From a bacterium (GTDB lineage Bacteria > ARS69), in assembly GCA_025774805.1 (NCBI GenBank), contig JALGZR010000143.1:1-10805 (forward strand): a stretch of 10,805 nucleotides of DNA. Reading direction: 5' to 3'. The notes beneath the pieces were generated by a model. That model saw only the letters and a list, made by a program, of their open reading frames with translations, did not search any database and had not been told where the DNA came from. Each line of letters starts with the position of its first letter. Positions within the stretch are counted from its first letter, which is position 1. A program made the position numbers and the translations under genes. This document shows, piece by piece, positions 1,345 through 10,805 of the stretch.

Positions 1345-1743
1345 TCAGGCGATCTCCCGTATGTCGTCGATACGCACCGACGGGGCATCGCCCCAGAGAT
1401 CCTCCAGACCGTAGAAGGCGCGCGTCTGACTGTAGAACACGTGCACGACCACGTCCACGAAATCGATGAGCACCCAGCGCCGGCCGGACCGTCCCTCGAC
1501 GTGCCAGGGCTTCATGCCGAGCTCGGTCAGCTTCTCGGAGAGGTGATCGGCGATCGCTTTGACCTGCGTCTCCGAATCCGCGGTGCAGATGACGAACCGG
1601 TCCGCGGCGGAGGTGAGCTTCCGCAGGTCGAGAATGAGGATGTCGTGGGCTTTCTTTTCGAGGGCGAGATGGGCCACGTGAGTGGCGAGCTCGGCGGAAT
1701 TCAAGAGGCGGTGCGGCTCCCGGTTCAGGGTTCGGGTCGGCAT
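1345..1743 (-). CDS. rsfS: Ribosomal silencing factor RsfS (Iojap/YbeB family)
   Basis: A 132-residue cytoplasmic protein of the RsfS/Iojap/YbeB family. The family binds uL14 on the large ribosomal subunit and blocks subunit joining when nutrients are scarce. The signature is clear: KKAHDILILDLRKLT (31-45), an adenylate-free nucleotidyltransferase-like core with DRFVICTADSETQVKAIADH, then WHVEGRSGRRWVLIDFVDVV and VFYSQTRAFYGLEDLWGDA near the C terminus. Length is normal for the family. The ATG at 1743 has no good Shine-Dalgarno sequence, so a slightly different start is possible. It lies 41 bases after the EetB-like gene and 117 bases before argS. A sigma70-like promoter overlapping the previous stop codon could drive rsfS-argS separately from the electron-transfer genes. 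In many bacteria rsfS sits next to nadD; here it neighbours argS. Confidence 0.95.
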   Translation of the reverse strand: MPTRTLNREPHRLLNSAELATHVAHLALEKKAHDILILDLRKLTSAADRFVICTADSETQVKAIADHLSEKLTELGMKPWHVEGRSGRRWVLIDFVDVVVHVFYSQTRAFYGLEDLWGDAPSVRIDDIREIA

Positions 1744-1781: not shown

Positions 1782-1810
1782 ATTCTACCACTCCGGCAGC
1801 CGGCGGTGAA
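1782..1810 (-). promoter_or_regulatory. Candidate sigma70-type promoter for rsfS-argS
   Basis: On the minus strand, TTCACC (1810-1805, 4 of 6 to the -35 consensus) is followed by a 17-base spacer and TAGAAT (1787-1782, 5 of 6 to the -10 consensus). The -10 includes the TAG stop of the upstream gene. Transcription would begin near 1775, giving a leader of about 30 bases before the rsfS ATG. It stands out as AT-rich in a GC-rich region. This is inference from consensus alone. Confidence 0.4.
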
Positions 1811-2288
1811 CGGCCAGAACCACCGCCCCGGTGATGAGTCCGAGGGGCACGGCGGTGAGGGTGAGGACGGGAGCCAGGGCGAGGGCGCCCGATCCCAGGG
1901 CGAACAGCCCGGAGAAGGCGGCGAGCTGCCCCGTGACGTGGGCGCCCGAGCCGAGAACGCTCACGCCGAGAAGGGAGAGAGGGGGGCAGAGTCGACGGAG
2001 CGCCCCCGCCATCACGAGAACGGCGGCGGCGCTCCCGGCCGCGGACAGCACGAACGCGGGACCGCCGAACGTTCCGAGCAGGAGTCCGGTCAACAGGACG
2101 CGCAGGCCGGCGACTGTCAGCCCCGCCGCCGTCCCCAGGCGGACCAGCGCGAGGAGGGTCACTCCGTTCGCGAGTCCGAGCCGCAGCCACGGGAGCGGCC
2201 GGGGGGCGAGGCTCTCGGCGATCTGGAGCGTGATCGCCACCGCGGTGAGCGCCGCGAGCCGCGCCGCCGTGCGGGCGTCGAGAGTCAC
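1785..2288 (-). CDS. eetB: Gx transporter / heptaprenyl diphosphate synthase component I family membrane protein (EetB-like)
   Basis: A 167-residue polytopic inner-membrane protein of the family annotated Gx transporter or heptaprenyl diphosphate synthase component I. In Gram-positive flavin-based extracellular electron transfer loci the member is called EetB. Diagnostic features are PRPLPWLRLGLANGVTLLAL in the first third, GLRVLLTGLLLGTFGGPAF in the middle and GAHVTGQL later, with about five hydrophobic segments covering nearly the whole chain. The start is a GTG whose last two bases and following A form the TGA stop of the preceding gene (GTGA overlap), so translation is probably coupled; no Shine-Dalgarno is visible. 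The open frame extends further upstream, but that part is arginine-rich and overlaps the neighbour, so it is rejected. EetB is thought to pass electrons between the quinone pool and exported flavin components; its biochemistry is poorly defined. The name is given by family and context. Confidence 0.85.
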   Translation of the reverse strand: MTLDARTAARLAALTAVAITLQIAESLAPRPLPWLRLGLANGVTLLALVRLGTAAGLTVAGLRVLLTGLLLGTFGGPAFVLSAAGSAAAVLVMAGALRRLCPPLSLLGVSVLGSGAHVTGQLAAFSGLFALGSGALALAPVLTLTAVPLGLITGAVVLAVHRRLPEW

Positions 2289-2695
2289 CGGGTCACCGCG
2301 TCGGGGACGTCGGCGTCGGGCGGGCCGCCCCCGAGGACGATCACGAGGGCGTTCGGAACGCATGCGATCAGCTCTCCCGTCCGCCGCCTCTCCCCCATCG
2401 CCACGCAGATTCGTTGGGGGCACGGGCTCTCGACGACACGCACCGCACCCTCCCGCACCTCGAGGGTCACCGGCCCCCGGAGTCCTTCGACGACGACGCG
2501 CCGGTCGCTCGCGAGCGACAGGGTGACGGCCTCGCGTCCGTCGACGGTCACGCGAGCTTCCCGCGGAGAGGATGCGGGGGAGCGAAGTCCGGCGGCGAGG
2601 ATCAGCGAGAGCGCGATCAGTCCGATCGACACGATCCGATCGGCCGGGGTCGTCTCGGAGACCAGCGAGCGCAGGGACGCGAGCGGGGAAGCCAA
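2285..2695 (-). CDS. eetA: Membrane-anchored NusG domain II protein (EetA-like)
   Basis: A 136-residue protein with a single N-terminal membrane segment (about 20-38, IVSIGLIALSLILAAGL) and an extracytoplasmic NusG domain II. The domain is recognised by VESPCPQRICVAMG (88-101) and GELIACVPNALVIVL (107-121), including the conserved cysteines C92, C97 and C112. Stand-alone NusG-II proteins of this kind are not transcription factors. They recur beside Gx-transporter and ApbE genes and are named EetA in flavin-based extracellular electron transfer loci. The likely start is TTG at 2695, one base after the ApbE stop. A GTG at residue 22 is an alternative but would clip the membrane segment. No clear Shine-Dalgarno is seen, in keeping with coupling to the upstream gene. 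Its stop overlaps the GTG start of the EetB-like gene. Family assignment is firm; the electron-transfer role is inferred from neighbours. Confidence 0.85.
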   Translation of the reverse strand: MASPLASLRSLVSETTPADRIVSIGLIALSLILAAGLRSPASSPREARVTVDGREAVTLSLASDRRVVVEGLRGPVTLEVREGAVRVVESPCPQRICVAMGERRRTGELIACVPNALVIVLGGGPPDADVPDAVTR

Positions 2696-2696
2696 G

Positions 2697-3782
2697 TCAG
2701 TCGGCCCGGTAGGCGGCGAATCCGGAGCTCTCGTGAAAAACGAGCTCGCCCTCCTCGTCCACGGTGACGATCACGCCCTCGAGCGCGGGGCGGTCCTCGA
2801 GTGCCCGCAGTCCCGCCTCGGGACCGAGCACGAACACGGCCGTCGCCCACGCGTCGGCCCGTGCACACGTCGGCGCGATGACCGTCGCGCTCCGCGCCTT
2901 GCGCGCGGGGTGGCCGGTCCGAGGATCCAGGAGGTGGTGATAGCGCACTCCGTCCACCTCGAAGTACCGCTGGTAGTCGCCGGAGGTGGCCACCGCCCGT
3001 CCGCCGGGAAGGTGGAGCTTCACGAACAGGCGGGAGGGATCGCGCGGATCCTGCACGCCGATCACCCAGGGAAGGCCTCCCGGCTTGCTCCCCCGCACGG
3101 CCAGATCCCCGCCGAGGTTGACGAGCCCGTTTCCGCAAGTCTCCTCCACGATCGCCATGGCCCGGTCGACCGCGTAGCCCTTCGCGAGCGCGCCGAGGTC
3201 GATCGCCATTCCGCGTCGCGAGAGCCGCCACGCGCGGGAGACCCGCCCACCTCCGGACTCGATCGGAAACGAGCCCTCGAGCGGGACGAGGTCCTCGTGC
3301 GAGACGAGGGTGACCGCCGCCGCGACGGCCTCCGGCGTCGGCAGGGCGGGCTCGCCGTGAAACCCCCACGCCTCCACGAGCGGACCGGTGGTCGGATCGA
3401 ATGCCCCGTCCGAGGCGACCGCGACCTGGAGACCGATCGTGAGCATACGGTCGAGATCGGGGCCGACGCGCAGCGGAGTGCCCCCCGCCCGCCGCCCGAG
3501 AGCCGATACCTCGCTCGAATCGGAATAGGACGTCGAGATCGCTTCGATCCGGCCCAGCTCGGCGAGCGCTCGGTCGAACACCTCCTCGGCCCGCTCCGAG
3601 CTCTCGTCGAAGACCTTCAGCTCACCGAAGGTCCCCATCACGGTGACCTGGCGCTTCTTCGGCTCCCCTGCGGAGTCGCGCGGCGAGGAGAAGCCGCCGC
3701 AGGAGGAACCGCCGAAGAGCGTGACGAGGGAGAGAACGAGAAGGGGGACCCGCGTGCGCCGCCCGCCGGGACCCGGATCCAC
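2697..3782 (-). CDS. apbE: FAD:protein FMN transferase, predicted lipoprotein (ApbE/FmnB)
   Basis: A 361-residue ApbE-family enzyme that covalently attaches FMN, taken from FAD, to Thr/Ser of exported or membrane flavoproteins. An N-terminal hydrophobic stretch (11-24) ends at Cys28 in GGSSC, a loose lipobox, so it is probably a lipoprotein outside the cytoplasmic membrane. Family motifs appear in order: MGTFGELKVF (49-58), GAFDPTTGPLVEAWGF (126-141), DLGALAKGYAVD (195-206), VNLGGD (221-226), TSGDYQRYF (266-274), HHLLDPRTGHPA (282-293) and ADAWATAVFVLG (309-320). These include the acidic Mg-binding and FAD-binding positions, so it looks active. The start is GTG at 3782, one base past the polyprenyl synthase stop, with GGAG (3794-3791) 8 bases upstream. 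No FMN acceptor gene (FMN-binding domain, PplA-like) lies in the window, so the target must be encoded elsewhere. Confidence 0.95.
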   Translation of the reverse strand: MDPGPGGRRTRVPLLVLSLVTLFGGSSCGGFSSPRDSAGEPKKRQVTVMGTFGELKVFDESSERAEEVFDRALAELGRIEAISTSYSDSSEVSALGRRAGGTPLRVGPDLDRMLTIGLQVAVASDGAFDPTTGPLVEAWGFHGEPALPTPEAVAAAVTLVSHEDLVPLEGSFPIESGGGRVSRAWRLSRRGMAIDLGALAKGYAVDRAMAIVEETCGNGLVNLGGDLAVRGSKPGGLPWVIGVQDPRDPSRLFVKLHLPGGRAVATSGDYQRYFEVDGVRYHHLLDPRTGHPARKARSATVIAPTCARADAWATAVFVLGPEAGLRALEDRPALEGVIVTVDEEGELVFHESSGFAAYRAD

Positions 3783-3783
3783 G

Positions 3784-4806
3784 TCAGCGACTCCGGGCGA
3801 TCATGGTCTCGGCGGTGGCGAGGAGGGGACCGATCGGAAGGTCGGCCGTGAGGGTCGAGAGGCGCTCCCGGGCCGAGGTGGCGAGGGCCCGGGCCTTCTC
3901 CTTGGCGGCGTCGACGCCTCCGCTGTCGATCACGAATTGACGCGCCGCCGTCCACTCCTCCTCCGTGACGTCTCCGCGCGAGAACCACTCCGCCACCTGG
4001 CGCCCGCGGGTCGTGTCCCCCTCCTTCAGGGCGTGGATCAGGGGGAGGGTGGCGAAGCCGAGCTTGAAGTCGGTTCCCACCGGCTTCCCGATCGCGGCCG
4101 GATCCCCCGTGAAGTCGAACACGTCATCGATCACCTGAAACGCCGACCCGAGGTCGCGGCTGAACTCCGAGAGCGCGGTGGCGGTCGTCTCGGGCAGCTC
4201 GGCGAGGACCGCGCCGATCTCGCAGGAGGACACGAAGAGAGCCGCGGTCTTCTCGTCGATGATCCGGAGGTACTCCTCCAACGGGAGCCGCGCGTCCCTC
4301 CGGCCGGCGAACTCCCGGTTCATGCCGCAGGTCATGCGAAACGTGTGGAACGTCAGAATGCGGAGAGCGGCGTAAAGACCGTGCTCGCACAGCAGATCGA
4401 ACGCCTTGGTGAAGAGGTAGTCCCCCATGAGGATCGCCGAGTGCGGATCCCACCGGTGGTTCACGGTGGGCACGCCCCGCCGCAGGGAGGTTCCGTCGAG
4501 GCAGTCGTCGTGCAGAAGCGTGGCCGTGTGCACGAGCTCGACCACGGTCGAGGCCCAGAGAACGTCCTCCCGGTCGGCCGCGTCGCTCAGGCGCGTGACG
4601 AGCAGAAGGAGCAGGGGCCGGACGCGCTTGCCCTGCAGCGACAGCACGTGATCCATGATCTCGGCCGTCCGCGGGACGTCGGGCCGCTCGATCGCGACGA
4701 GTCTCTTCTCGATCTCGTCGAGGTCTTTCCTGACGAGCGAGTAGACCTCGGGAAGGGAGAGCGGAGCGGAGGGGGCCGAGCGCTCGCGGGCGAGGGAATC
4801 ACGCAT
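3784..4806 (-). CDS. Long-chain polyprenyl diphosphate synthase (trans-isoprenyl diphosphate synthase, DmkB-like)
   Basis: A 340-residue all-trans polyprenyl diphosphate synthase, probably making the side chain of a menaquinone or other quinone. Key sites are GKRVRP (59-64), first aspartate-rich motif DDCLD (D100, D101, D104) followed by RRG, KTAALF (186-191), second aspartate-rich motif DDVFD (D227, D228, D231) and GKPVGTDFKLGFATLPL. The residues four and five before the first motif are T96 and A95. Lack of an aromatic there usually means a long product (C30 or more), but length cannot be fixed by eye. The commonly seen GExxQ segment reads GMNRE. The ATG at 4806 has GGAG 10 bases upstream. 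It is the first gene of the minus-strand run; in FLEET loci the equivalent gene is dmkB, supplying a dedicated demethylmenaquinone tail. It could equally be the general quinone-tail synthase of the cell. Confidence 0.93.
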   Translation of the reverse strand: MRDSLARERSAPSAPLSLPEVYSLVRKDLDEIEKRLVAIERPDVPRTAEIMDHVLSLQGKRVRPLLLLLVTRLSDAADREDVLWASTVVELVHTATLLHDDCLDGTSLRRGVPTVNHRWDPHSAILMGDYLFTKAFDLLCEHGLYAALRILTFHTFRMTCGMNREFAGRRDARLPLEEYLRIIDEKTAALFVSSCEIGAVLAELPETTATALSEFSRDLGSAFQVIDDVFDFTGDPAAIGKPVGTDFKLGFATLPLIHALKEGDTTRGRQVAEWFSRGDVTEEEWTAARQFVIDSGGVDAAKEKARALATSARERLSTLTADLPIGPLLATAETMIARSR

Positions 4807-4878
4807 GAAGGGGTCTCTCCGGGAAGAGCGGCCTCCGGGGCGACGTCCGGGGGATCGGAAAGAGACGGCGGATCGTGA

Positions 4879-4898
4879 GTTCGGCGTCGTTCCCGAAC
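4879..4898. repeat. Short perfect inverted repeat at the predicted transcript start of the minus-strand operon
   Basis: GTTCGG (4879-4884) and CCGAAC (4893-4898) form a perfect 6-base dyad with an 8-base spacer. It lies immediately downstream of the candidate minus-strand -10 box, at about +1 to +20 of that transcript. It could be an operator for a dimeric repressor or a small 5' hairpin in the leader. A 6-base dyad can arise by chance in GC-rich DNA, so confidence is limited. Confidence 0.35.
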
Positions 4899-4905
4899 GG
4901 ACCGG

Positions 4906-4934
4906 ACCGTATCAACTCCCGACAGACCCGTCAA
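4906..4934 (-). promoter_or_regulatory. Candidate sigma70-type promoter for the polyprenyl synthase-apbE-eetAB operon
   Basis: On the minus strand, TTGACG (4934-4929, 5 of 6 to the -35 consensus), a 17-base spacer and TACGGT (4911-4906) preceded by TGA form an extended -10 (TGnTAnnnT). The start point would be near 4899, leaving a leader of about 93 bases before the ATG at 4806. It is the best promoter match in the divergent gap and is placed correctly for the first minus-strand gene. Confidence 0.5.
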
Positions 4935-4996
4935 CGCGACCCCCGGGAACCGCGTTTCGAACTGTAGATCCATCAACGGGTTGCTCCGTCGCCGGC

Positions 4997-5026
4997 TTGT
5001 CGGCCTTCCGGAGCGGGTGCTACCCT
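4997..5026 (+). promoter_or_regulatory. Candidate promoter giving a leaderless mRNA for the YfhO operon
   Basis: TTGTCG (4997-5002), an 18-base spacer and TACCCT (5021-5026) preceded by TGC (extended -10) sit just before the ATG at 5034. With a start point about 7 bases after the -10, transcription would begin at or one base before the ATG. No Shine-Dalgarno sequence is visible before this ATG, which fits a leaderless start. The hexamer matches are only moderate. Confidence 0.35.
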
Positions 5027-5033
5027 CCCTCGG

Positions 5034-7480
5034 ATGACCCGAAGCGATCTCTTCGCCTTTCTGGCACTGGCGCTCGCCGTAGCGGCCTTCTTCGGGCCCG
5101 CCCTCTTCGGGGAGCGGGCGGTGTTCACCTGGAACATGGACCGCTGGCTTCCGTGGGCGGCGCACGCCTCGCCCGAGGATCTCGCTCGACCGACGCGACT
5201 CGCGGACTGCGCTCGCCAGTTCGGTCGGGGCGCATCCCGCTCTGGAATCGCTGGATCTTCTCCGGAACCCCCTTCCTCGCGAACTTCCAGCCCGGCGTCT
5301 TCTATCCTCCCAACCTCGTGCTGGCCTGCACGGGGCTGTCGCTCCCCGATCAGATGACCGCGTACTTGGTCTTTCATCTCCTGCTGGCGGTGACGGGGAT
5401 GTACGTGTTCCTGCGGCTGTGCCGGGTCCGCCCCCTCGCCGCTCTGATTGGGGGCGTCGTCCTCGGCTGGAGCGGGTACAACGCGGCCCGCACCGGCATT
5501 CCCACGATGGTGGCGACGGGAGCGTGGCTTCCGTGGGCGATGGCGTCCACGCGGCGCTGGTTCGAGCGGGAGGACGGCCGGAGCTGGGGGGGAATGGCGC
5601 TCTCTCTGGGGATGTCGGGGCTCGCCGGCTTCGCGCAGATCTTCGTGTTCACGTTCTACGCGTGGGCGCTGCACGCCGTCGTCGAGGGCCTCTTCCGTCG
5701 CCCCCGTCTCCGGCCTCGCCGCTGGCTCGGGCCGGTGTCGGCGGGGGCGGTCGGGGGCCTCCTCGTCGCCGTCCATCTCGCGCCCACTCTCGAGTTCACG
5801 CGGCTCGCACAGGACGCGACGAACTCCCCGGAGATGCTCGGCTCGGGCACGATCCATCCCTGGGTCCTGGGCAAGCTCGTGGTGCCCGATCTGCTCGGCA
5901 ATCCGCGGGACGAGAACAACGCCACCCACCACCTCGGGGTCGGCGCCGGCTACTACCACCAGACGGAGCGGAGCACGGCCCTCTACGTCGGCATTCTCCC
6001 CCTTCTTCTCGCGAGCGTGGTGCTGCTCTCGCCGGGCGACCGGAGGCGCGCGGCCGCCGTCGGTCTCGGGCTCGCGATCGGCGGGATCCTCTTCGCTCTT
6101 CGCACTCCCCTGACCTCGCTGGCGCCCTCGATCCCCGGCCTCGGATTCTCCAGGCCGGATCGCGCGACGTTTCTCTGGTGCACGGGAGTGGCGGTGCTGG
6201 CCGGAGTGGGAGCCGAGCGCATGGCGAGTCGGGAGGGTCCCGGCGCGGCGCGGGCGGCGAACGGGCTCGCGGCGGGGATCGGTCTGGCCGCGCTCGCGTT
6301 CGCGACGGCGGTGGTCCTGGCCGGAGAAACGCTTCTTCCCCCCGCGGTCGTGGCGACGCTCGGCGACGGGTACGCGACCCGCGCGGGACTTCTCGCCCTT
6401 CCGTCCGCCGCGCTCGCGCTCGCGCTGCACGGACTCCGGACGCGGGATCGCATCGGGGGGCGCGCGTTTCTGATCGCCGCCCTCGCCCTGGTCGCGGCGG
6501 ATCTCGGCCGACCGGCGCAGCGAATGAACATCCTCCAGCCGGAGGAGTCCGTCTATCGACCCGCTCGCGCGGGAGGAAGCCTCGCCTGGCTGACCGACCG
6601 ACGGTCGGCCGAGGAGCCGATCCGCATTCTCCGCCACGAGCCCCTGCGCAGCCCGACCACCGGGGTCCTTCCCCCCTCGACGGGCGCGCTCTACGGGCTC
6701 GAGGACGTGCTCGGCTTCGACTCGATCAACCTCGCGCGATACCGCGAGCTGCTGGAGTCTCTCGATCCGGAGATCGTGGTGAGGCGCGGCAACTTCCGGG
6801 GAACGCGCCGCGCCGAGTCGCTGGCGCTTCCCCTCGTGGATCTGCTGAACGTGCGCTACGTCCTCGCCGCGAGCCCGGAGCCGCTGCCCGGACTGGAGCT
6901 CGCGCACGCCTCCGATCTGGCCGTGCACGAGAACCGGGACGTCCTTCCGCGCGCCTTTCTCGTGGACGAGGTGCGGGTTCTCGAGGATCCGGCGGCACTG
7001 CGGCGCGCCATGGCCCTTCCCTCGTTCCGCCCCGACCTCTGGGCCTACGCGGAGTCCCCGATTCCCGGAGTCCCGGAGCGACCGGCCGACGCGTTCCGGA
7101 GCGAGCGGCCCGACCTCGGGGCGGTCCGCATTCTCTCCTACGGGGACGAGAAAGTCCGCATCGAGGTCGAGCCGAGGGGGCCGGCTCTGCTGGTCCTCAC
7201 GGACGCCCACTATCCGGGATGGAAAGCCTCCGTCGACGGCGAGGCGCGGCCGATTCACCGGGTGAACCACGTCTTTCGGGGGGTGGGCGTCCGCCCCGGA
7301 GACCGCGAGATCGTCTTCACGTACGAGCCCTCCTCGTTCCGCGTGGGGGCCGCGCTCAGTCTGGCCGGCCTCGTGGCGCTCGGAATCGGAACCGTCGGGT
7401 TCGGGAGGACCGCGCCGAGGCGGGCACCGCCGGCCGGTTCCGGGACGACCCCCCGGAAGGAAGGAGCCCCTCCCCGATGA
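5034..7480 (+). CDS. YfhO-family polytopic membrane protein, interrupted by a -1 frameshift near 5222
   Basis: A large integral membrane protein of the YfhO family (GT-C-like). Bacillus and Listeria members are needed to glycosylate lipoteichoic acid. The N-terminal part, from ATG 5034, encodes a first membrane helix (about 5-25) and then DLARPTRLADCARQF. At C5222 the similarity moves one base back to RSGRIPLWNRWIFSGTPFL and FQPGVFYPPN, the family's conserved segment after the first helix. Restoring one base gives a continuous product of about 815 residues: many hydrophobic helices, a soluble extracytoplasmic region, LVLTDAHYPGWKASVDGE near residue 727 (the family's YPGW motif) and a last helix before an Arg/Pro tail. 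As read, a ribosome starting at 5034 stops at 5357 after 107 residues. The open frame that contains the main body extends back past 5034, but that stretch has no family similarity. The stop overlaps the next gene's ATG. The true substrate is unknown. Confidence 0.85.
5220..5224 (+). other. Frameshift site: one base apparently missing in the YfhO-family gene
   Basis: The upstream frame reads CGC CAG TTC (5214-5222), and the downstream frame reads CGG TCG GGG CGC from 5222, so C5222 would be used twice. A second C after TTC (TTCCGG instead of TTCGG) restores ARQF-RSGRIPLWN without other change. No slippery heptamer of the X XXY YYZ type is present, so programmed slippage is unlikely. A homopolymer-type deletion, either an assembly or read error or a real mutation, is the simplest reading. 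Confidence 0.8.
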
Positions 7481-8832
7481 GACGAGCGGGTGACCGGCGG
7501 CGGATCGCTTCGCGCCCGATCGGCGTCCCGCGCGTCGGCGCACGGATCGCGGCGCTCGGGTGGGCCGTGGGGGCGGCGATGATCCCGTCGTGCGCCGGCG
7601 ACGGGAGCCCCGACCTCCGCGACGAGGCGGCCGGCCGCGTCTTCCTCATCGGGATCGACGGGGTCACGTGGGACCTTCTCGACCCGCTGCTCGAGGCGGA
7701 GCGACTGCCGAATCTCGCCTCCCTGATCGCCGAGGGGTGTCGCGCTCCGCTCGCGTCAATGGTTCCCACGAAGAGCCCGGCGCTCTGGACGACCGTCGCG
7801 ACCGGCAAGGAGTTCGACTCCCACGGGATCAACGACTTCACCCAGGTCGTCCGGGAGAACGGGCCGCCGAACGCGCGTGTCATGCACATGACGTCGAACA
7901 TGCGCCGGACGAAGGCGCTCTGGAACATCCTCGGGGACGTCGGCCTGCGCTCGGCGTTCATCGGGTGGTGGGTCACCTGGCCGGCGGAGCAGGTCGAGGG
8001 GTACATGGTCTCCAGCCACGTGCCGCTGGCGCAGACGGGGGGGAAGGCGGCGCCCACGAAGGGAACGCTCGTACAGGACCTGGAGGGACAGACGTGGCCG
8101 CCCGAGCTCTTCGAGGAGCTGCGCCCGCTGATCCGTCCCGACGAGAGCGTGACGTTCCAGGAGGCGCGGCGGTTCATGGACCTGAGACCGGAGGAGCTGG
8201 GAAAGAACATCGTCGAGGGATTCCGCTGGGCGTTCGCCGCCGACGAGACCTACCGGGCCGTCACGCTCCACCTCCTCGAGAAGGACTCGGACCCCGACCT
8301 GTGGGGGATCTACTTCAACGGCAACGACGTCGTCGGTCACCGCTACTGGAAGTACATCGAGCCGGAGGTGTATCCCCCCTTTCCCCCGGAAGAGCTCCCG
8401 CGCTTCTGCAATCTCATCGATCGCTACTACGAGTACACGGACGGGCTGATCGGCGAGATCCTCGAGCGGCGGCAGCCGGGCGACACGTTTCTGCTGATCT
8501 CCGACCACGGGTTCCACGCGTTCGGTCACAGGGACGGGCCGGCGGGAGTGATCATCGCCTCGGGACGGCACGTCGAACCGGGCGCCGTCCCCCGGGACGC
8601 CCGCCTCGTGGACGTCGCCCCGACCGTGCTCGCGCTGCTCGGGATCCCCGCCGCGGAGGACATGGACGGGCGCGTGCTCGACGAGCTGTTCACGGAGGAG
8701 TGGCGGCAGCGCTACCCCCGGGAGAGAATCGAGACCTACGATTCGGAGAACTGGCGGGAGCAGTCCCCGATTCCGTCCGGGGTCGACGGGGAGATCCTCG
8801 AGCGGCTACGGACCCTGGGGTACCTCGAATGA
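7477..8832 (+). CDS. Alkaline phosphatase superfamily lipoprotein (type I phosphodiesterase/nucleotide pyrophosphatase-like), copy 1
   Basis: A 451-residue metal-dependent phosphatase or phosphodiesterase fold protein, probably outside the cytoplasmic membrane. The N terminus is basic, then hydrophobic, ending at Cys39 in a MIPSC lipobox. The two-zinc site can be followed: D61 in LIGIDG, likely nucleophile S100 in PTKSPALWTTVATGK (where nucleotide pyrophosphatases have Thr), D284 and H288 in NGNDVVGHRYW, D343 and H344 in ISDHGF, and H351 in FGHRDG. FIGWWVTWPAE (about 161-171) and EDMDGRVLDELF near the end are shared with the next gene. The product ends in LRTLGYLE. The ATG at 7477 overlaps the YfhO stop (ATGA), and AGGAG lies 10 bases upstream. 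Relative to copy 2, the loop between SDHG and the last histidine is shortened. The substrate is not known; a phospho-substituent on a surface glycan or lipid is an inference from the neighbours. Confidence 0.88.
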   Translation: MRRAGDRRRIASRPIGVPRVGARIAALGWAVGAAMIPSCAGDGSPDLRDEAAGRVFLIGIDGVTWDLLDPLLEAERLPNLASLIAEGCRAPLASMVPTKSPALWTTVATGKEFDSHGINDFTQVVRENGPPNARVMHMTSNMRRTKALWNILGDVGLRSAFIGWWVTWPAEQVEGYMVSSHVPLAQTGGKAAPTKGTLVQDLEGQTWPPELFEELRPLIRPDESVTFQEARRFMDLRPEELGKNIVEGFRWAFAADETYRAVTLHLLEKDSDPDLWGIYFNGNDVVGHRYWKYIEPEVYPPFPPEELPRFCNLIDRYYEYTDGLIGEILERRQPGDTFLLISDHGFHAFGHRDGPAGVIIASGRHVEPGAVPRDARLVDVAPTVLALLGIPAAEDMDGRVLDELFTEEWRQRYPRERIETYDSENWREQSPIPSGVDGEILERLRTLGYLE

Positions 8833-10214
8833 GCGTGCGAGTGACCCACCGGACCGATGCGGGAGCGCCGCGCCGAATCCGGCGGATCGCGGGATGGCGG
8901 CTCGTCGCGGCGATCGGGACCGCGCTCGTGGCGGCGGTGGGCTCCGGGTGCGGGACCTCCTCCGAGTTCCCGCCCCCGCAGACCACGCTGATCGGACTCG
9001 ACGGAGCCGACTGGCGGATCGCGCTCCCGCTCCTGCGCCAGGGCAAGCTCCCCACCCTCGCCGCCCTCCGGCGCGCGGGCTCCTCCGGGGTCATGCTCAC
9101 CAATCCGGACTATCGCTTCTCCCCCGTCCTCTGGACGACGGTCGCGACGGGCAAGCTCCCCCGGAAGCACGGCGTGACGAGCTTCATGGCGCAGGTGCCC
9201 GAGATGCCCCGTCCCGTTCCGACCCCGTCGACGGCGAGAAAGGTCCGGGCGCTCTGGAACTTCTTCACCGAGCGGGAGCGGACCGTTGGCTTCGTCGGAT
9301 GGTGGGTGACCTGGCCGGCCGAGCCGGTGAACGGCTTCATCGTCAGCGATCACTTCTCCGTCACGCGGTTCCATCTCGGGCCCGACTATGAGCGCACGCT
9401 CGAGGACGAGTTCCTCGAGCGCCAGACGTATCCCGAGTCGCTCGCGGAGAGTCTTGTCGGGGCGAAGTACTCCCGGAGGGACGTGACCCGGAGCGACTAC
9501 GCCCGCTTCGCCCGGCTGCCCGAGGACTGGCGGCTGCCCGACCGGTTCACGAAGTTCGACAGGTTCAGCGAGTTCGCGATCGCCCACTCCGTCGACCGGA
9601 CGCATTTCGCCGCGGGCGAGCGGTTGCTCCGGGAGGTCCGCCCCGAGCTCTTCGGCGTCTTCTTCCAGGGCATCGACATCCTGCAGCACTACTTCTGGGA
9701 GTTCATGGATCCGGAGGGAAGTCCGGAGACGAGCCCCTCGCTCGAGGATCGTCGCGTCTTCGGGGAGGCGATCGAGGAGTACTACCGGTTCGCCGACGGA
9801 CTCGTCGCGCGACTGATCGAGGCGGGGGGCGGCGATCGGGCGGTGATGGTCGTCTCCGATCATGGATTCCGGCCGGACGCGATGCGCTATCGGGTCAAGA
9901 ACATCTCCGGGGAGCACCGGCGTCAGGCCTTCTACCTGCACGCCGGCCCGGGAATCCGTCGGGACCACCATGAACAAGGGTTCGACGCGGTCGACGTCAC
10001 CCCGACGATTCTCGCCTACCACGGTCTGCCGGTGGCGGACGACATGGACGGCGACGCCGTGCTCGACGCGTTCACCGACGAGTGGATCGAGGATCACCCG
10101 CTCGCCGTCATTCCGACGTGGGAGGTCACGCCGCGCGAGACGGGGACGTTACCGGAGCACTCGATGTCGCAGGATCTCGAGGAGAGGATCCGCGCCCTGG
10201 GATACATCGAATGA
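8829..10214 (+). CDS. Alkaline phosphatase superfamily lipoprotein, copy 2 (paralogue of the preceding gene)
   Basis: A 461-residue paralogue of the preceding protein. A hydrophobic stretch (about 24-40) ends in VGSGC with Cys41, so lipoprotein export is predicted. Catalytic and metal positions are D58 (LIGLDG), S98 in FSPVLWTTVATGK, D283 and H287 in GIDILQHYFW, D344 and H345 in VSDHGF, and H363 in SGEHRRQ. FVGWWVTWPAEPVNGF and DDMDGDAVLDAF match copy 1. The central region (about 170-260) is clearly different and rich in Arg, Asp and Phe, and is the most likely place for a different substrate preference. It ends in IRALGYIE, nearly the same tail as copy 1. The start overlaps the previous stop (ATGA) and only weak G-rich sequence precedes it, so translation probably depends on re-initiation. 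Cooperation with copy 1 on related substrates is inferred. Confidence 0.88.
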   Translation: MSVRVTHRTDAGAPRRIRRIAGWRLVAAIGTALVAAVGSGCGTSSEFPPPQTTLIGLDGADWRIALPLLRQGKLPTLAALRRAGSSGVMLTNPDYRFSPVLWTTVATGKLPRKHGVTSFMAQVPEMPRPVPTPSTARKVRALWNFFTERERTVGFVGWWVTWPAEPVNGFIVSDHFSVTRFHLGPDYERTLEDEFLERQTYPESLAESLVGAKYSRRDVTRSDYARFARLPEDWRLPDRFTKFDRFSEFAIAHSVDRTHFAAGERLLREVRPELFGVFFQGIDILQHYFWEFMDPEGSPETSPSLEDRRVFGEAIEEYYRFADGLVARLIEAGGGDRAVMVVSDHGFRPDAMRYRVKNISGEHRRQAFYLHAGPGIRRDHHEQGFDAVDVTPTILAYHGLPVADDMDGDAVLDAFTDEWIEDHPLAVIPTWEVTPRETGTLPEHSMSQDLEERIRALGYIE

Positions 10215-10805
10215 GCCGGAGAGGGCGCGCGCGCGATCGCGCGACCTGGAGGGCCGTCGCGGTGATGGCGGCGGCCGTGCTTCTCGGAGGGGGAGCGGGC
10301 TGCGGGGGGCCGGGAGCGCGGGAGGCCCCTCCCGGAATCGTCCTCGTGACCCTCGACACGTTCCGAGCCGATTACCTGGGATGCGGCGGGAGCGCGGACG
10401 TCCGGACGCCCCACCTCGACCGTCTGGCTCGCCGGAGCCTGCACTGGTTCGACGCCGTGACCGGCATTCCGCTCACGACGCCCTCTCACGCGACGATCCT
10501 GACCGGTCGCTCGCCCCGATCCCACGGGCTCCTCAAGAACCGGATGCGACTGCCGCAGGGAGTGACCTCCGTCGCGGAGATCCTGAAGGCGAGCGGCTAC
10601 CGGACCGGGGCCGTCGTGTCGAGTCGGATCGTTCTCGGTCCGGAATTCGGTCTCGATCGGGGTTTCGATCAGTACGAGGTGGTCGAGCCGGACCGTTACC
10701 CGGGATCGGGGGAGGGCGCTCGCACGACCGAGGCGGCCGTCGGCTGGCTCGCGGAGCAGGGAGGCGCCGGCTCCTTCCTGTGGGTGCACTACTTCGACCC
10801 CCACC
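10211..10805 (+). CDS. Sulfatase-like hydrolase lipoprotein, N-terminal 198 residues (3' end outside window)
   Basis: A sulfatase-family (alkaline phosphatase superfamily) protein, truncated by the window edge. The hydrophobic signal (about 14-30) ends in GGAGC, with Cys31 as the predicted lipidated residue. Core motifs are IVLVTLDTFRADYLG (43-57, metal-binding D49), TPHLDRLARRS (66-76), PLTTPSHATILTG (87-99), SPRSHG (101-106) and WVHYFDPH at the edge. The nucleophile segment, which is CxPSR or SxPSR in formylglycine sulfatases, reads TTPSH with Thr89 at the key position. It therefore probably does not use formylglycine and may be a phosphohydrolase or phosphotransferase instead; LtaS-type enzymes also use Thr. 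It overlaps the previous gene by ATGA and is the fourth member of the coupled operon. The C-terminal half, which in this family may carry tetratricopeptide repeats, cannot be seen. Confidence 0.88.
   Translation, partial: MSRRGRARDRATWRAVAVMAAAVLLGGGAGCGGPGAREAPPGIVLVTLDTFRADYLGCGGSADVRTPHLDRLARRSLHWFDAVTGIPLTTPSHATILTGRSPRSHGLLKNRMRLPQGVTSVAEILKASGYRTGAVVSSRIVLGPEFGLDRGFDQYEVVEPDRYPGSGEGARTTEAAVGWLAEQGGAGSFLWVHYFDPH

Follow-up and report, generated by a model that had tools for sequence, protein, structure and literature searches.

Do genes related to dmkB, fmnB, eetA and eetB, four components of the flavin-based extracellular electron transfer (FLEET) locus of Listeria, signify extracellular electron transfer (EET) when they are found together in another bacterium? 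The question is raised by a four-gene operon on contig JALGZR010000143.1, all 10,805 nucleotides of which were analyzed and are referred to here as the window. It makes up contig C265 in the metagenome-assembled genome (MAG) of an uncultured bacterium, which measures 5.1 Mb, is 96% complete and has about 65-70% G+C. The operon encodes a polyprenyl diphosphate synthase (PPS), the FAD:protein FMN transferase ApbE, EetA and EetB. An initial annotation of this DNA related the four families to dmkB, fmnB, eetA and eetB and placed them in a non-Firmicute genome, and we confirmed both points. It also took the operon for a FLEET-like locus, perhaps reduced or rewired. We conclude instead that, most probably, the operon is a flavin-cofactor maturation unit that combines FAD export with flavinylation for Nqr and Rnf, with a quinone-tail synthase attached.

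Most FMN_bind proteins of the genome are Nqr and Rnf subunits

A family search found a single copy of apbE genome-wide. The same genome has five FMN_bind genes, encoding NqrC, three RnfG proteins and one fusion of FMN_bind to a NapH-like part. NqrC sits in an Nqr operon, in which NqrB and NqrC score above their NCBIfam cut-offs and NqrA above that of TIGR01936, and the three RnfG proteins are encoded in Rnf loci, adjoining RnfD and RnfA/E-type genes. All five FMN_bind proteins carry a flavinylation site of the (S/T)GAT type, which is also present in NqrB. The prediction that exported domains flavinylated by ApbE exist in this organism was correct. A free-standing exported FMN_bind lipoprotein resembling PplA is not among the five.

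That the genome has one ApbE for five FMN_bind genes, four of them encoding NqrC or RnfG in Nqr and Rnf operons, argues for a role in Nqr/Rnf maturation. So does the gene content of G001, the smallest and most complete relative, which keeps one ApbE together with eetA and eetB and has NqrC as its only confident FMN_bind gene, plus one weak match.

The fifth FMN_bind protein is a membrane protein of 1184 residues (L010:6995-10549, on contig C236 of the window's genome, G000). It combines a membrane part weakly similar to spermidine synthases, an FMN_bind domain with the flavinylation site GVTGATLTS and a Fer4_5 part resembling NapH/NosR, and it is encoded next to AMMECR1 and a radical SAM gene. 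It is possibly an unusual flavinylated electron-transfer protein.

Behind an Rnf locus in two genera (L007:2460-13563; L050:1-10378) come a cytochrome gene, whose product has 16 CxxCH motifs, and genes for a ferredoxin-like subunit and an NrfD protein. Electrons might pass from Rnf to periplasmic cytochromes in this way. As a special case of flavin-cofactor maturation, this Rnf locus rather than Nqr could be the main client, with flavinylated RnfG feeding the cytochromes. Occurrence of the cluster in two genera, each time with a 16-heme cytochrome, speaks for this version. We regard it as very unlikely, given that G001 retains eetA-eetB, apbE and Nqr with no Rnf FMN_bind gene found there and that the window operon is tied to the cytochrome cluster solely by lying in the same genome.

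EetB relatives usually accompany apbE, without FLEET-type Ndh2

We scanned 84,980 species genomes with EetB of the window's family and found 68 loci, 66 of them outside the phylum. The apbE gene lies no more than 3.5 kb upstream of eetB in 40 of these 66, and the order apbE-eetA-eetB is found in 33. A PPS gene is present in seven, always downstream and mostly in Nitrospirota, and none of the 66 has a FLEET-type Ndh2, as judged by match to the Listeria protein. Of 25 genomes with EetB, two of which belong to the window's phylum, 23 have FMN_bind genes. When the FMN_bind loci were counted, own phylum included, 41 of 45 adjoined RnfD/NqrB or RnfA/E-type genes, or 36 of 40 without five duplicates. 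This preponderance of Rnf and Nqr operons, together with the recurrence of apbE-eetA-eetB without Ndh2, again supports the Nqr/Rnf-maturation reading. In three genomes (G005 to G007), the Rnf locus (L143, L146 and L147) encodes an RnfG with two tandem FMN_bind domains, and in G005 eetB is on the same contig as this gene.

Published counts put eetB together with apbE in 2,169 genomes and together with Rnf in 572 Clostridia; Rnf and EET systems are the ones that it most frequently accompanies (Rivera-Lugo et al. 2023, PMC9973259). The window operon resembles the ApbE-associated EetB FAD-export module of that study in its families, its apbE-eetA-eetB linkage, the predicted energy-coupling factor (ECF) S-component fold of EetB and the presence of Rnf and Nqr clients in the same genome. 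It differs in lying outside the Firmicutes, in having PPS as its first gene and rsfS-argS after it and in containing no ECF-T gene. In three of the loci outside the phylum, eetA-eetB follows Rnf genes at a short distance, two with the apbE-eetA-eetB order of the window (L058 and L059) and one with its eetA-eetB order (L100, rnfCDGEAB-eetA-eetB). These have Rnf close by, whereas the Nqr and Rnf genes of the window's genome are on other contigs.

The operon lacks defining features of FLEET

Operationally, a flavinylation cluster has been classed as FLEET when it includes a type II NADH dehydrogenase that has a transmembrane helix (Meheust et al. 2021, PMC8238504). As references we used the locus of Listeria monocytogenes (L178), found through an ApbE search, and two Enterococcus loci (L181 and L185); further Firmicutes were found through Listeria EetB. 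In all three reference loci, ndh2-eetA-eetB-PPS is on one strand and pplA-apbE with prenyltransferase genes is on the other, joined in Listeria by fmnA. The window has the same PPS, ApbE, EetA and EetB families; its ApbE aligns over its length with Listeria FmnB at 31% identity, and its PPS aligns over 246 amino acids with the Listeria FLEET enzyme at 34%. However, its order is PPS-apbE-eetA-eetB, and Ndh2, PplA, FmnA and the DHNA prenyltransferase (DmkA/MenA) are absent from the window, as the initial annotation had noted. UbiA-family genes and a single CbiQ/ECF-T gene are on other contigs. No EET-type Ndh2 was found in the window or in the loci of its phylum relatives; no genome-wide search for Ndh2 was made.

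The window's EetB is 31% identical to that of Listeria and 28% to that of Enterococcus gilvus versus 44% to that of Rnf-linked L059, the highest identity outside the phylum. In an EetB tree built from about 150 columns, the FLEET EetBs group with other Bacillota in a starred clade (99/96) and the window's family falls outside, beside the long-branched Rnf-linked L100 (91/87), on a weak backbone. The tree favors neither an Rnf-linked nor a FLEET-linked origin of the window's EetB.

A reduced or rewired FLEET, in which a dedicated quinone, made with the window PPS, would feed electrons to an exported protein flavinylated by ApbE and from there to external acceptors, would account for the shared families, for multiheme cytochromes adjoining an Rnf locus and for the kinship with FLEET EetBs that the tree leaves unrejected. 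We nevertheless judge it highly improbable. The order differs from that of FLEET loci, the cluster lacks Ndh2, PplA, FmnA and DmkA, the FMN_bind genes encode Nqr or Rnf subunits or the NapH-like fusion, EetB has a higher sequence identity to an Rnf-linked relative, and deletion of eetA leaves Listeria EET intact (PMC9973259). An EET reading lacks features that define FLEET, and the four genes are no evidence for mineral electron transfer of the Listeria type.

A tblastn search of plasmid records with the window's EetB gave no match. Some PLSDB "plasmid" records resemble chromosomes or parts of them, L178 of Listeria, L182 and L184 among the loci used here; records of this kind measure 593 kb and 2.9 Mb for Listeria, 2.6 Mb for Acetoanaerobium and 2.1 Mb for Fusobacterium, and a ribosomal protein operon lies in the Listeria record. 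The phylum of a "Clostridia" MAG was searched, covering six small genomes only, and contained no FLEET.

EetB is predicted to be an ECF S-component

The AlphaFold model of EetB (pLDDT 92) had as its top 13 PDB matches only ECF S-components, TmRibU among them, with substrates that include riboflavin and thiamin. TM-scores reached 0.72, and these and the match probabilities were consistent, with E-values that were weak (0.02 and above). The modeled protein thus has the ECF S-component fold. The Pfam name of its family, PF07456, is heptaprenyl diphosphate synthase component I, and a PPS gene neighbors eetB here, in FLEET and in seven of the 66 other loci, which would fit a subunit of the prenyl synthase in an isoprenoid operon with ApbE as a bystander. 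We rejected this role because of the modeled fold, that of a membrane S-component, and consider it extremely improbable: apbE is just upstream of eetB in 40 of the 66 loci versus a nearby synthase in seven, and the Listeria EetB binds FAD and exports it for ApbE (PMC9973259).

An adjacent ECF-T gene was looked for in the operon and is absent. The single EcfT gene of the genome is paired with truA, and an adjacent pair of EcfA-like ATPase genes is on another contig; a shared ECF motor could therefore serve EetB. EcfA labels on some of the loci compared belong for the most part to UvrA or to other ABC ATPases and were disregarded. ApbE has an N-terminal export signal, judged by eye, and a possible lipobox cysteine. 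EetA was modeled (pLDDT 90) as a membrane helix followed by NusG domain II, matching the DUF1312 structures 4esn, 4obi and 3ld7. Its residues C97 and C112 are invariant in a 34-sequence alignment (A3) and visible in all 52 EetA matches, FLEET included; a third cysteine is nearly invariant in FLEET and non-FLEET members alike.

FAD export in this organism, the involvement of a shared ECF module and what the synthase makes are inferred. EetB, probably with the shared EcfT and EcfA/A' of the genome, would move FAD from the cytosol outward, with EetA as its putative membrane-anchored partner. Outside the membrane, ApbE would attach FMN from the exported FAD to threonines of NqrB, NqrC, RnfG and RnfD, and the FMN_bind/NapH-like fusion is a probable further client.

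The synthase may provide a menaquinone tail

The genome has three polyprenyl synthases, of which one is encoded beside apparent xseB and dxs genes (neighbors read by eye) and one beside a UbiA-like gene. Two PF02621 (MqnA/D-type) genes, with an MqnP-like UbiA near one of them, suggest that menaquinone is made by the futalosine route. The window PPS probably makes the menaquinone tail, in which case the operon would provide a single respiratory chain with two of its cofactors. The proposal that flavinylated exported proteins are linked to a dedicated quinone pool held in part: flavinylated domains and a quinone pathway are there, and a dedicated pool is unsupported in a genome with futalosine-type menaquinone genes and three synthases. 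We consider it unlikely that the operon is a dedicated two-cofactor unit that coordinates the quinone tail with exported flavin for Nqr and Rnf and in which EetA, which carries the invariant extracytosolic cysteine pair, would hand FAD from EetB to ApbE or sense its redox state.

Organization and conservation of the operon

The genes are listed in Table 1.

TABLE 1 Genes of the PPS-apbE-eetA-eetB operon and the rsfS gene downstream of it
Gene product	Coordinates	Strand	Length (aa)	Pfam match	Remarks
Polyprenyl diphosphate synthase (PPS)	3784..4806	-	340	PF00348 polyprenyl_synt, 207 bits	DmkB-like family
ApbE, FAD:protein FMN transferase	2697..3782	-	361	PF02424, 262 bits	
EetA	2285..2695	-	136	PF07009 NusG_II, 70 bits	One transmembrane helix + NusG domain II
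EetB	1785..2288	-	167	PF07456 (Hpre_diP_synt_I), 95 bits	ECF-type S-component, proposed FAD exporter subunit
RsfS ribosomal silencing factor	1345..1743	-		PF02410, 112 bits	Housekeeping; conserved downstream neighbor, possibly cotranscribed

The four families were confirmed in the order and on the strand first proposed, each with a Pfam score (70-262 bits) well above the cut-off. The tight packing was also found as described, with 1 base between PPS and ApbE, 1 base between ApbE and EetA and a GTGA overlap at 2288-2285, where the GTG start of EetB overlaps the eetA stop; GTG or TTG start codons were assumed for ApbE, EetA and EetB. Only 41 bases separate eetB from rsfS, so the transcription unit may extend into rsfS and argS, the latter starting at 1227 on the minus strand and continuing to the contig end. 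A scan did not confirm the single candidate promoter reported earlier; a weak promoter-like sequence, TTGACG-N17-TACGGT (8 of 12), is present at 4934-4906.

Five genomes, all from one family, represented the phylum. The order PPS-ApbE-EetA-EetB-RsfS-ArgS is kept in L021 and L022, from two other genera, at ~50-70% protein identity, both with a divergent YfhO gene upstream; the initial annotation had suggested a test of the four-gene order in related genomes. Chance adjacency of the four genes was ruled out because the order is conserved across genera. In a third genus (L045), the PPS-ApbE part is seen at a contig end. In a fourth genus (L020, from G001, a genome of 2.7 Mb with a completeness rating of 100%), the operon stands without apbE, whose single copy is on another contig. 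RsfS holds the same position in L020, L021 and L022. ApbE and FMN_bind genes were found in all five genomes and EetB in four; in the fifth, the contig ends inside the operon.

The YfhO-like gene divergent from the window operon (5034-5357 and 4805-7480) appears to begin in one frame (MTRSDLFAFLALALAV...) and continue in another, which suggests an assembly frameshift or a damaged gene; relatives have a single long frame. Behind it, at 7500-10805, are three tandem genes for alkaline-phosphatase-superfamily proteins, two of the phosphodiesterase type and one of the sulfatase type. Both phosphodiesterase genes and YfhO also adjoin the operon in L020 and L021.

Discussion

Several observations weigh against flavin-cofactor maturation for Nqr and Rnf as the function of the operon. 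The operon itself contains no client gene. Two of the 25 EetB-bearing genomes had no FMN_bind match, perhaps through incompleteness, and about a dozen mostly weaker FMN_bind matches outside the 45-locus count are unclassified. The EcfT and EcfA genes are on contigs other than that of the operon, and the EcfA matches score under the curated threshold. Finally, an approximately unbiased (AU) test leaves a joint clade of the window's and FLEET EetBs unrejected (p 0.08, or 0.37 with other Bacillota).

The association of eetB with Rnf is already published (PMC9973259), and the window extends the EetB-ApbE-Rnf association to a small phylum, so far little sampled, in which the four genes have an order of their own. 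EetA is strictly conserved and yet lacks a phenotype in Listeria. Genes of these families serve as evidence of EET elsewhere: FeGenie includes the whole Listeria operon as iron-reduction markers (PMC7005843), a 2026 estuary study counts eetA and eetB among iron-reduction genes (PMC13212322) and a FLEET-type pathway has been claimed from such genes for the Gram-negative phylum Ca. Effluviviacota (PMC11323493). Judging from the window and its 66 relatives, outside the FLEET Firmicutes eetA and eetB usually accompany apbE, and the flavinylated proteins of the genomes concerned belong for the most part to Rnf or Nqr. The eetA, eetB, dmkB and apbE genes are thus poor markers of EET, and an EET reading from them should require Ndh2 and PplA.

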